Origin: an uncultured Spirochaetota bacterium
GTDB lineage: Bacteria; Spirochaetota; UBA4802; UBA5550
Reading direction: 5' to 3'
NCBI GenBank assembly: GCA_937872225.1
Contig: CALMRZ010000047.1
Coordinates: forward strand, 62,001-126,000
Length of the DNA: 64,000 bases
This document shows, piece after piece, positions 46,202 to 50,256 of this stretch (its first letter is position 1; the number at the start of each line of letters is the position of its first letter). Under the pieces are notes generated by a model that did not search any database, was not told the origin of the DNA, and saw only the letters and a list, made by a program, of their open reading frames with translations. Position numbers and translations under genes: made by a program.

Positions 46202-46230
46202 TTGACAGGCAGTGCAGTATTACATCAATG
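46202..46230 (+). promoter_or_regulatory. Candidate promoter of the KaiC-like/XRE gene
   Basis: TTGACA (46202-46207), 17-base spacer, and TCAATG as a weak -10. It is divergent from the small-ORF promoter with only 23 bases between the two -35 boxes. Confidence 0.45.
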
Positions 46231-46233
46231 TAA
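46220..46233. promoter_or_regulatory. Palindrome, candidate operator
   Basis: TTACATCAATGTAA is a perfect inverted repeat (six-base arms, two-base centre) covering the -10 box of the plus-strand promoter. It is a good candidate site for the XRE-domain protein encoded downstream, but binding is inferred. Confidence 0.45.
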
Positions 46234-46410
46234 AATTATAATTATCCTGATAAAATGTTTAGCAGGAATTAATGGTATTATGATATATTGATCTTGGACT
46301 GATTCCCGATCTGTGCCGTTTGAAAGATCCGCTTGGCGGGGATTACCGGGGAAAGGCCGTGGATTGTTATGATTCAGGGCAGCCTGAATAATAAACGGGA
46401 GAATGACACC

Positions 46411-47679
46411 ATGATAAGCACCGGATTACCGTATCTCGACAAGCTTACCGGCGGATTCAAGGCAGGGGACAATGTCGTATGGCAGATCTCGGACGGCGTT
46501 CCCGTTGAGCATTTCATACGAAGTTTTTTCAATGAGGCGAATGAGTTCAATGAGAATGTCATTTACGTGAGCTTCAATTTTTCGCCCCATACCATCCTGA
46601 GAAGATATGAATATCTTTTTAAAAAGAAAAACGCGATACTGATCGACGCGTTCACCCATGGAAAGGGAAACAGCGATCCGGTGTTCCTTGATTTTTACAA
46701 AGGAGGAAACTACGACAGCAGACAGTTCCGGTGCGTTGAAAACCCGCGGGATATTGCCCATTTTATCGAGATGATGAATGATATAGAAAAACAGTGCCGT
46801 GAGCAACCTTTTTATATTTTTGACAGCCTTACCGGCATGAACGAGCTCTGGAAGGACGAGGGTGCGGTCCTTGGTTTTTTCACCTTCACGTGCCCGAAAC
46901 TGTACGAGCTGAACACCCTGGCATACTGGTTCTTCGGGAGGGACGCTCATACAAAGGAATTCATCGCGGGGATCATGCAGGTAACGCAGATCGTGTTTTC
47001 CATAAGCGCTTCAGACACGGGTTACTATGACTTGAGGATAAACAAGCTGGAGGAGCGCACCTCCCTGTTCGGGTCCCAGCCCAACCTCTTCAGGGTCATC
47101 AACCAGGATATCTGCTTCGAGGAGGACCGGAGCGCGGACCTTTTCAAGATCGGGGACAAGGTGAAGAACCTGAGAAAAGAGTCGAGGATAACCCAGGCCG
47201 AGCTGGCATCGTCCCTGCAGATGACCCCCGGCGCGGTTTCGCAAATAGAGCATGGCGTCGTTTCTCCCTCTCTCCAGACGCTGGTCAAGCTCGCATCGGT
47301 CTTTAAAAAGCCCCTGGATTACTTTATCGGCGGTTCGGCGACTGCCGGCGTGCTGAAGGGTTACCTGGTGTCAAAGAATAACCCCCGGATCGCTTCCCCG
47401 CATAAAAGTGTTTCCATTCGCCAGCTGTTGGTTGCGGAGGAGCTTTCGATAAAATCGTTTCTGGTGAGCATTGACGGAAACATGACCGTCGAAGGGCCGC
47501 TGCTGCTTCACAAGGGCAAGGAGTTTATGGCGGTAATAAGGGGTTCCCTGAAGATCGTCATAGACAACGAGACAAATATTCTGCAAGAGAATGATTCTCT
47601 CCTTGTCACCAATTCATTTGTCACCGTATTGCAGAACGCCGGAGACGGAGAGTGCGTTTTCATGTATTTCCTGTTTTAG
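46411..47679 (+). CDS. KaiC/RAD55-like domain fused to XRE regulator and cupin
   Basis: A 422-aa three-part protein. Residues 1-235 resemble a KaiC/RAD55 RecA-fold domain (TGLPYLDKLTGGFKAGD at the start, FYIFDSLTGM as a Walker-B-like strand), but the Walker A GxxxxGK[ST] is missing. Residues 246-305 form an XRE helix-turn-helix (IGDKVKNLRKESRITQAELASSLQMTPGAVSQIEHG). Residues 335-422 form a cupin (GPLLLHKGKEFMAVIRGSLKIVIDNE). XRE-cupin regulators usually sense small ligands; the added KaiC-like part is unusual. GGGAG precedes the ATG at 46411. Upstream in-frame ATGs are less fitting. Confidence 0.82.
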   Translation: MISTGLPYLDKLTGGFKAGDNVVWQISDGVPVEHFIRSFFNEANEFNENVIYVSFNFSPHTILRRYEYLFKKKNAILIDAFTHGKGNSDPVFLDFYKGGNYDSRQFRCVENPRDIAHFIEMMNDIEKQCREQPFYIFDSLTGMNELWKDEGAVLGFFTFTCPKLYELNTLAYWFFGRDAHTKEFIAGIMQVTQIVFSISASDTGYYDLRINKLEERTSLFGSQPNLFRVINQDICFEEDRSADLFKIGDKVKNLRKESRITQAELASSLQMTPGAVSQIEHGVVSPSLQTLVKLASVFKKPLDYFIGGSATAGVLKGYLVSKNNPRIASPHKSVSIRQLLVAEELSIKSFLVSIDGNMTVEGPLLLHKGKEFMAVIRGSLKIVIDNETNILQENDSLLVTNSFVTVLQNAGDGECVFMYFLF

Positions 47680-47745: not shown

Positions 47746-48021
47746 TTACTTGAATAACCTGCTGAAAAGGTAGATAAACCGGTTTTGCAGGGAGTCTTCC
47801 ATTATCTGGATTTTCATCGACCTGCCCCACAGCACGGAGCCGTCAAGTTTCGCACACGCCCTCTTTGCTTCCGATATCGACGTCATATCGACAAAGCCGA
47901 GCCCCCTGTTCCTGTTCATCCTGATCTTTTTGATGTCTCCATAGGTTGAAAAGAGGTTGTCAAGGTGCTTCTCCGTCGTCATGGTATCGAGGTTTTCCAC
48001 CATGAGCCTGCTGGTTGTCAT
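47746..48021 (-). CDS. RRM-domain RNA-binding protein
   Basis: A 91-aa protein consisting almost entirely of one RNA recognition motif: RNP2-like RLMVENL at residues 5-11 and RNP1-like RGLGFVDM near 39-46, with the beta-alpha-beta-beta-alpha-beta order complete. Bacterial members of this type bind single-stranded RNA and are often cold- or stress-related. AAGGAG precedes the ATG. The RNP1 aromatic positions read L and F, so one of the usual stacking aromatics is replaced. Confidence 0.88.
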   Translation of the reverse strand: MTTSRLMVENLDTMTTEKHLDNLFSTYGDIKKIRMNRNRGLGFVDMTSISEAKRACAKLDGSVLWGRSMKIQIMEDSLQNRFIYLFSRLFK

Positions 48022-48479
48022 ACGCTATCTCCTTGTGCCTCCGTATTCAGCAACAATTATAAAATAGGAAAACCAGCAGCCGGGGACAATACAAATACTG
48101 CAGCCGAGGTTACGGCCATGTAAAATGAGCATGTTCCCGTAATTTACGCTAAATAATGCGATGTGAAAATATAGCGGCGCTGAATTGATATCGCGCGACA
48201 TGCAGGTTGTCCGGTAACGCAGGGTTGTGGACGGGAGCGTCAAGGAAATTGCCGGAGCCTGCTGCGGCGCAACTCGGCAACCATGGCCCGTCCTTCCGCC
48301 CCTGATGGGGGGCGCGGGACCTTTACGTTTGATGACTCAGATCCCCCGCCAGCTGCAGGGCGCCGGCAATATCTTTTATTGTTCTCCCCTCGGGTAGACA
48401 GGGGCGCCGCATATAAATCCGGTTTCACGTCTTTCCAGGACATGATTTGTTACGGCGATGTTACGGCGGTGTTACTTGA
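48022..48479. other. Intergenic region of about 460 bases
   Basis: No supported gene. The left end is AT-rich and probably carries the RRM gene promoter (a TATAAT-like box on the minus strand near 48058). The middle is GC-rich and holds the inverted pair CCCCT/AGGGG near 48390-48405. A 67-codon plus-strand reading frame at 48283-48486 has no ribosome-binding site and no recognisable protein features. Confidence 0.4.
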
Positions 48480-48509
48480 TTGTTAAATTTGGCCGATTCG
48501 GGGTATAAT
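48480..48509 (+). promoter_or_regulatory. Candidate promoter upstream of amt
   Basis: TTGTTA (48480-48485), 18-base spacer, TATAAT (48504-48509). A second candidate, TTGACG (48523-48528) with TATTCA (48546-48551), lies just downstream. No sigma-54-type site was seen. Confidence 0.4.
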
Positions 48510-48678: not shown

Positions 48679-49902
48679 ATGATAAATTACACTGATACGG
48701 CCTGGATGCTCATCGCAACCGCCCTGGTAATGATCATGACCCCGACACTGGCGTTCTTTTATGGCGGGCTGGTGCGGAAAAAAAACATACTTTCGGTTCT
48801 GATGCAGACCTTCGTGATTCTTTCGGTGATATCCCTGCAATGGATCCTGTTCGGATACAGCTTCGCCTTCGGGCCTGACCTGGGGGGCGTGATCGGAAGC
48901 CTTGACTTCGCGGGCCTGAGGGGAGTCGGCATGGAGCCGATATCCGGACAAACCATACCGCACCAGGTATTCATGCTGTTCCAGATGATGTTCGCGGTCA
49001 TCACGCCGGCCCTGATCATAGGGGCATTTGTTGAACGGATCAAGTTCAGCGGTTTTCTCCTGTTTGCCCTGCTGTGGACTACGTTCATTTATGATCCCAT
49101 GGCCCACTGGGTCTGGTCGCCCGACGGATGGCTGGCCAAGCTGGGGGCCCTCGATTTCGCCGGCGGCACCGTCATCCATATCCTGGCCGGCATATCGGCC
49201 CTGTTGATGGCCATCATGCTCGGCAGGAGGGACGGTCTGCCCAACGGACATGCCCCCCACAACCTTCCCCTGGCGGTGCTCGGGGCCGGCTTTCTCTGGT
49301 TCGGATGGTTCGGCTTTAACGCGGGGAGCGCCCTTGCCGTGGGGCCGGTGACCGTCAGCGCCTTTTTGAACACCAACACGGCCGCGGCCGCGGCGGGTGT
49401 TACCTGGATGCTCATGGACTGGATCGAGAACAAGGTCCCGACCATGCTCGGCGTGATCACCGGCATCGTGGCCGGACTCGTGGCCATAACACCGGCGGCG
49501 GGCTACGTAAAGCCGATGGCGGCCATAGCCATAGGCGCGTCGGGGAGCATCGTGGGCTTCATCTTCGTGACGAAGATAAAGGCGCGTTTTAAATATGACG
49601 ACTCGCTCGACGTCTTCGGCGTCCACGGCATGGCCGGGATCACCGGGGCCATCATGACCGGGATCTTCGCGACCAAGGAGATCAATCCCGCCGGGGCCGA
49701 CGGTCTCCTGTATGGAAACCCGTCACAGCTGCTCGTGCAGGGTCTGGCGGTCCTGGTCGCGATCGTCTTTGCCGCAGCGGGGACCTTTATCATCTTTAAA
49801 ATCGTGGACAAGACCATCGGACTCAGGGTCGACGCGAAGGACGAGCATATCGGCCTCGACCTGACGCAGCACCATGAAGCCGGCTACACGGTGATGGAAT
49901 AA
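48679..49902 (+). CDS. amt: Ammonium transporter Amt
   Basis: A 407-aa membrane protein with eleven hydrophobic segments that conducts ammonium across the inner membrane. Family marks are YGGLVRKKN near the first loop, the first pore histidine in DFAGGTVIHI, GWFGFNAGS, and the second pore histidine in FGVHGMAGITGAI. The C-terminal tail (GLDLTQHHEAGY) is the part bound by PII proteins. AAGGAGG precedes the ATG. A PII gene starts 12 bases after its stop, the standard amt-glnK pair. Confidence 0.95.
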   Translation: MINYTDTAWMLIATALVMIMTPTLAFFYGGLVRKKNILSVLMQTFVILSVISLQWILFGYSFAFGPDLGGVIGSLDFAGLRGVGMEPISGQTIPHQVFMLFQMMFAVITPALIIGAFVERIKFSGFLLFALLWTTFIYDPMAHWVWSPDGWLAKLGALDFAGGTVIHILAGISALLMAIMLGRRDGLPNGHAPHNLPLAVLGAGFLWFGWFGFNAGSALAVGPVTVSAFLNTNTAAAAAGVTWMLMDWIENKVPTMLGVITGIVAGLVAITPAAGYVKPMAAIAIGASGSIVGFIFVTKIKARFKYDDSLDVFGVHGMAGITGAIMTGIFATKEINPAGADGLLYGNPSQLLVQGLAVLVAIVFAAAGTFIIFKIVDKTIGLRVDAKDEHIGLDLTQHHEAGYTVME

Positions 49903-49914
49903 GGAGGAGTGATC

Positions 49915-50256
49915 ATGAAATACGTAATCGCGATAATCAAGCCCCATACCCTGGAAGCGGTGAAAACAGAGCTGGAAAAGGAAGAGGTGCACCTCATGAC
50001 CGTCACGGAAGTCCTGGGATGCGGAAGGCAGAAGGGCATCACCGAGGTCTATCGCGGCGTGAGGGAGGTCGATAACCTTCTCAGGAAGGTAAAGCTCGAG
50101 ATCGCCGTCAACGATAATTTCCTCGAGAAGACGATTGACGCCATAACCCGCGGCGCCGGCGAAGGGGAGATCGGTGACGGGAAAATATTCGTCTTTGATC
50201 TTAAGGAATGCATCAGGATCCGGACCGGCGAGCGGGGCGGCCAGGCGATCGGGTAG
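49915..50256 (+). CDS. PII nitrogen regulatory protein lacking Tyr51
   Basis: A 113-aa PII protein that senses ATP/ADP and 2-oxoglutarate and plugs Amt channels. The T-loop GRQKG, TEVYRG (Tyr46 present) and the B-loop/C-terminal [10 protein letters not shown] and RIRTGERG are intact. The position of the uridylylated Tyr51 reads Glu (YRGVREV). The neighbouring LLRKVKLEI keeps the family core. AAGGAGG precedes the ATG at 49915. It shares a transcript with amt. Control would have to rely on ligand binding or another modification. Confidence 0.93.

Follow-up and report, generated by a model that had tools for sequence, protein, structure and literature searches.

An XRE-cupin regulator with a P-loop-less KaiC-like domain, linked to nitrogen-assimilation genes in one order of Spirochaetota

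What might a KaiC-like domain without a P-loop be doing at the front of a DNA-binding regulator? The question is raised by a gene, here called REG, in a 64,000-nt stretch of DNA (the window) from an uncultured Spirochaetota bacterium. A sequence-only reading of the window had described the product as a KaiC/RAD55-like domain without Walker A fused to XRE and cupin domains, had suggested that the front domain may have become a protein- or ligand-binding module that senses state without ATP hydrolysis, and had named a domain-architecture search and structure prediction as checks. The gene and the parts of its product discussed below are these:

46411..47679, + strand: REG, XRE-cupin regulator with an N-terminal P-loop-less KaiC-like domain (422-aa ORF, 14 stop-free full-length orthologs)
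46411..47130, + strand: KaiC/RecA-fold domain, residues 1-240 (AlphaFold pLDDT 86; Foldseek matches to PH0284, FlaH and KaiC)
46465..46509, + strand: GDNVVWQISDGVPVE, conserved segment at the expected place of the P-loop (alignments; hhalign to KaiC sets GGTGCGKT opposite)
46645..46698, + strand: DAFTHGKGNSDPVFLDFY, near-invariant REG segment, missing from the PPDK-type paralog (alignments; strand-loop-helix in the model)
46810..46824, + strand: FYIFD, Walker-B-like strand with invariant D138 (alignments)
47149..47328, + strand: XRE helix-turn-helix, residues 247-306 (Pfam HTH_3 above cut-off; 15/15 orthologs match)
47455..47670, + strand: degenerate cupin, approximately residues 349-420 (Cupin_2 in 15/15, best E 6e-10)

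The architecture search, carried out within Spirochaetota and in one scan for close relatives, recovered 14 further full-length orthologs by whole-genome search (47-66% identical), all in REG's own order. REG begins with MISTG, as do almost all orthologs in the alignment, and internal stops were found in none of the 15 full-length proteins. REG is present in 15 of 46 genomes of its order and was found in none of ~250 Spirochaetota genomes outside it (296 sampled in all); close relatives in public genomes, in the one scan, were Spirochaetota records only. No description of the architecture was found in the open-licence literature. This type of regulator and the RecA/KaiC fold have both been described before; new are the way the domains are combined, the loss of the P-loop in an ancestor and the connection to nitrogen.

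The predicted fusion to XRE and cupin domains was borne out. Pfam HTH_3 matched residues 251-305 (E 2e-13, 50.4 bits versus a cut-off of 23), and Cupin_2, found in every ortholog, matched residues 362-418 of REG at E 1e-4 (22 bits versus a cut-off of 27.2). In the ortholog alignment the cupin keeps H367 and E371, and its second metal motif is not recognisable. An AlphaFold run on full-length REG (five sequences) gave a pLDDT of 46 and was left unused. Models of defence systems match the helix-turn-helix only, and a defence role for REG is not proposed. Like REG, the XRE-cupin factors PuuR, ErfA, PsdR and PauR have an XRE helix-turn-helix followed by a cupin and lie beside metabolic genes, but they consist of these two domains only, whereas REG adds a 240-aa KaiC-like front domain and has a degenerate cupin. 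Homologs on plasmids cover only residues ~199-422 of REG, i.e. the XRE-cupin part. These matches, together with the typical character of the XRE-cupin part (42.5 bits to the PuuR model NF007408, below its equivalog cut-off of 211), also fit an ordinary local XRE-cupin repressor in which the KaiC-like domain would add oligomerisation only and carry no signal. We regard this explanation as unlikely: despite the 47-66% overall identity, ~66 of 240 N-domain positions are invariant in the 15 REG orthologs, including the REG-specific segment around GKGN, and the domain is therefore more conserved than expected of a mere dimerisation tag.

Sequence alone was insufficient to assign the fold of this domain. 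The KaiC family PF06745 aligned to residues 2-69 with 12.4 bits, under the Pfam cut-off of 26.6, and was matched at E<0.1 by one of the 15 REG orthologs. Since a search of the N-domain profile against PDB sequences gave chance matches only (ABCA4), the claim of a KaiC fold rests on the AlphaFold model. An AlphaFold2 model of residues 1-240, calculated from seven sequences of the window and its relatives, had a mean pLDDT of 86.3 and a pTM of 0.86, two of the five models being poorer (pLDDT 62-67). Foldseek comparison with the PDB yielded 755 matches at E<=0.001, with RecA/KaiC proteins throughout; the best was 2dr3, the RecA-superfamily ATPase PH0284 (TM 0.73, E 1e-11), and FlaH and KaiC came next (TM ~0.7). 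At the level of a predicted structure, the RecA/KaiC fold proposed for the N-terminal domain is thus confirmed.

With the KaiC/RAD55 proteins of PF06745 (PH0284, FlaH, KaiC), REG shares this fold, a TG-x-LD-GG start and the Walker-B aspartate, but it is without the P-loop and the catalytic glutamates and scores under the Pfam cut-off. As the sequence-only reading had stated, Walker A is missing: in none of the 15 REG proteins does the N-domain contain GxxxxGK[ST] or even GK[ST]. Within GDNVVWQISDGVPVE, G19, D20, N21, V22 and W24 are invariant across the 15. An hhalign comparison between REG and KaiC proteins from its order that remain intact set GGTGCGKT opposite QISDGVPVEHF, a weak match that is in register (E 1e-4, probability 54%), and the same register places the KaiC catalytic glutamates, FEE after strand 2, opposite FNF or FNY in REG, which strengthens the idea of a pseudo-ATPase. 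The Walker-B-like FDSL of the earlier description stood in part, in that F137-D138 is invariant in all 15 proteins and the serine after it varies. Invariant in the REG orthologs, too, are G84-K85-G86 and K212, the latter kept in the PPDK-type family described below; by strand order, K212 presumably corresponds to the lysine that KaiC offers across its subunit interface.

Because the RecA fold is kept and the P-loop and catalytic glutamate are gone, we read the KaiC-like domain as a pseudo-ATPase, probably serving in oligomerisation and the binding of a ligand or partner, not in ATP hydrolysis. Another reading is that the N-domain still binds nucleotide in a different manner, for example via the GKGN loop, which would make REG an ATP/ADP or nucleotide sensor. 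The invariance of D138, G84-K85-G86 and K212 would suit such a sensor, and Elp456 offers a precedent of RecA-like proteins that lie far from the canonical motif (PMC11050213), but given the missing Walker A and the replaced catalytic glutamates we hold it to be quite unlikely.

The P-loop-less domain is not confined to REG. A family of ~865-aa proteins, commoner than REG within Spirochaetota, often encoded in REG's cluster and usually adjoining gdh, has the same N-domain (hhalign 99.7%, E 1e-26), with GDNVVWQ and FD-x-L, followed by a PPDK_N ATP-grasp domain and, at the C-terminus, by ~200 aa without assignment; no Pfam match to the PEP synthase histidine or PEP-binding domains was found. Unlike REG, these proteins have an ATP-grasp domain, no DNA-binding domain and no DAFTHGKGN segment. 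Representative genes are:

L049:4092-6686, - strand: ~865-aa KaiC-like/PPDK_N protein
L048:7627-10206: ~865-aa KaiC-like/PPDK_N protein
L050:5927-8512: ~865-aa KaiC-like/PPDK_N protein

Since this family shares the P-loop-less domain, the loss is older than REG, and a loss specific to REG was rejected; of the earlier statement that the P-loop was lost, the absence in all 15 proteins holds and the placing of the loss in REG does not.

Of the candidate partners of REG's KaiC-like domain, the KaiC/PPDK protein interests us most. The two proteins might even form a mixed RecA-type ring, through which REG would report carbon state (PEP/pyruvate/ATP) to nitrogen genes. The P-loop-less domain is common to both, their genes adjoin each other in five genomes and co-occur in 11 of the 15 REG genomes, PEPCK and GDH genes occur in the same clusters, and K212, which would match the KaiC interface lysine, is invariant in both families. 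However, four REG genomes are without the paralog and the co-occurrence has p = 0.06, and we consider such a ring quite unlikely.

Returning to REG as a regulator with a pseudo-ATPase domain, we examined the genes around it, the identities of its nitrogen-gene neighbours being checked by Pfam. The nitrogen setting that emerged had escaped the sequence-only reading. In family f1, a nitrogen-assimilation gene lies near REG in all nine carriers, in several different arrangements: gltB divergent from REG (G001, G003, G005), gdh (G003, G004, G005, G010, G015, G016), FMN glutamate synthase (G001, G008), nfnAB (G010, G015, G016) and, in the window's own genome (G000), amtB-glnK:

48679..49902, + strand: amtB, ammonium transporter (PF00909, E 4e-131)
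49909..50256, + strand: glnK/glnB, PII signalling protein (PF00543, E 4e-26)

In two genomes (G003, G005), REG is flanked immediately by the KaiC/PPDK gene on one side and gltB on the other. The window's own genome has a pepck-gdh-KaiC/PPDK-gltB-gltD cluster without REG on another contig, and REG there is beside amtB-glnK, which suggests that REG moved yet stayed with nitrogen genes. None of the six REG carriers in families f2 and f5 has a recognised nitrogen-assimilation neighbour; the neighbours there include hisD in two and TPR/EAL genes in five. In family f5 (L042, L044, L045, L041), a TPR gene and then an EAL-domain gene follow REG, which suggests a different regulatory setting. Within the window, a gene for a small RNA-recognition-motif protein (47746-48021, - strand) lies between REG and amtB. 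In G003, amtB-glnK is directly preceded by the end of a gene for an NtrC-type sigma-54 activator (L132:1-468, G003:C113). In L048 and L141, two large ORFs next to nitrogen sites were discarded, having turned out to be frames antisense to gdh.

The upstream regions of REG and amtB carry copies of a palindromic nitrogen box, scored with a matrix (PWM) derived from 29 sites in other genomes:

46215..46238, + strand: nitrogen box CAGTATTACATCAATGTAAAATTA upstream of REG (best PWM site of the 64-kb window, 25.1 bits)
48445..48490, + strand: tandem degenerate nitrogen boxes (TGTTAC, 11-bp spacing) upstream of amtB (PWM ranks 4, 5 and 8 in the window)

The score of the box upstream of REG was reached by none of 200 shuffles, and the three boxes upstream of amtB overlap. 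A nitrogen-box-like site of 13.5 bits also lies at 48105-48128, ~84 bp upstream of the start of the RNA-recognition-motif gene. The palindrome TTACATNNATGTAA has two exact copies in the window's own genome, one upstream of REG (46220-46233) and one in the gltB/KaiC-PPDK intergenic region, and family f1 has 20 exact copies versus one for the reversed control. Exact boxes were found upstream of gltB, gdh, amtB, FMN glutamate synthase, carA, purF (named from sequence only) and REG, with a minority at unrelated genes; sites of the box include G000:C87:34925, L145:520, L158:2936 and L146:3632. Across 45 genomes, amtB, gltB and gdh are preceded by the box or close variants, whether or not the genome has REG. 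The order-wide form, GTTAC-n6-GTAAA/GTAAC, agrees with the actinobacterial GlnR box consensus GTnAC-n6-GTnAC (PMC10704036). Upstream of REG the box is ATTAC-n6-GTAAA (around 46219-46234), its first base A, not G, and otherwise fits the GlnR target form GTnAC-n6-GTnAC or GaAAc. The box thus marks a Spirochaetota nitrogen regulon with GlnR-like sites.

A candidate reader is encoded in the window's own genome. This genome has two OmpR-type regulators only, one adjoining phoU and a histidine kinase and the other an orphan, L243:1081-1728 (G000:C17:73407-74054), in which Pfam found no receiver match. The best PDB matches of the orphan are 8hig, 8hih and 8hml, which we take to be GlnR structures, and 35 of 45 genomes in the order encode an L243-type protein. 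In five REG-carrying genomes with the box no match to a GlnR-like protein was found, perhaps reflecting incomplete MAGs, and REG is not tied to that protein by presence or absence. On the GlnR-like form of the box and the orphan's PDB matches, the GlnR-like protein is the likelier reader, with REG as a member of its regulon.

REG could instead read the TTACATNNATGTAA palindrome itself, as an autoregulated repressor that controls gltB, gdh and amtB in response to nitrogen. XRE-cupin regulators of Pseudomonas repress neighbouring metabolic genes and bind palindromes as dimers beside their own genes (PMC7901475), and REG has the window's highest-scoring box upstream of it. Genus g1, in which REG is common, has tight boxes, and REG carriers without a detected GlnR-like protein still have boxes. 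However, four genomes without REG (G007, G018, G019, G035) also have boxes, lying in front of gdh, gltB or the PPDK-type gene, so that the box is no evidence of REG binding, and our estimate was lowered after these; furthermore, GTnAC-n6-GTnAC is the form of GlnR sites (PMC10704036), and REG carriers of family f5 are often without a clear box at REG. Binding of the box by REG therefore seems improbable to us.

Taking together the architecture, fold, motif loss, conservation, neighbourhood and upstream box observed for REG, we think it probable that REG is a secondary transcription factor of nitrogen assimilation whose KaiC-like pseudo-ATPase serves in oligomerisation or sensing. It would act in the ammonium/glutamate-assimilation network of one Spirochaetota order, its gene lying inside a nitrogen regulon whose GlnR-like box is probably read by the orphan OmpR-type regulator; because REG itself belongs to that regulon, it would be a secondary regulator. 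We infer its DNA binding, direction of regulation, ligand, oligomeric state and box reader: the XRE domain would bind operators near REG's neighbours, like ordinary XRE-cupin regulators, and the degenerate cupin and the KaiC-like domain would form the sensory part.

Two described regulators resemble REG in part. GvpD of haloarchaea is presumably of the P-loop class. It controls transcription, repressing gas-vesicle genes (PMC4390858), but, unlike REG, it needs its p-loop, acts on the activator GvpE and is not itself an XRE DNA-binding protein. NsrX of Anabaena is an XRE protein and a secondary nitrogen regulator subordinate to a master (PMC12584617); it differs from REG in having no KaiC-like domain, and its masters are NtcA and FurC.

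KaiC-like domains are known as ATP-driven switches. In REG, a branch of this family that has long been without the means of gripping ATP, and that retains near-invariant positions, sits on a DNA-binding regulator and tracks nitrogen genes as they move. If a mixed ring with the KaiC/PPDK protein were true, the P-loop-less RecA domain would be used twice within one gene cluster, on a transcription factor and on an ATP-grasp protein resembling PEP synthase, and the ring would tie carbon state to nitrogen assimilation. The box, for its part, reveals a Spirochaetota nitrogen regulon like that of actinobacterial GlnR, with concrete targets, and REG offers a defined protein for asking what a dead RecA domain can sense.
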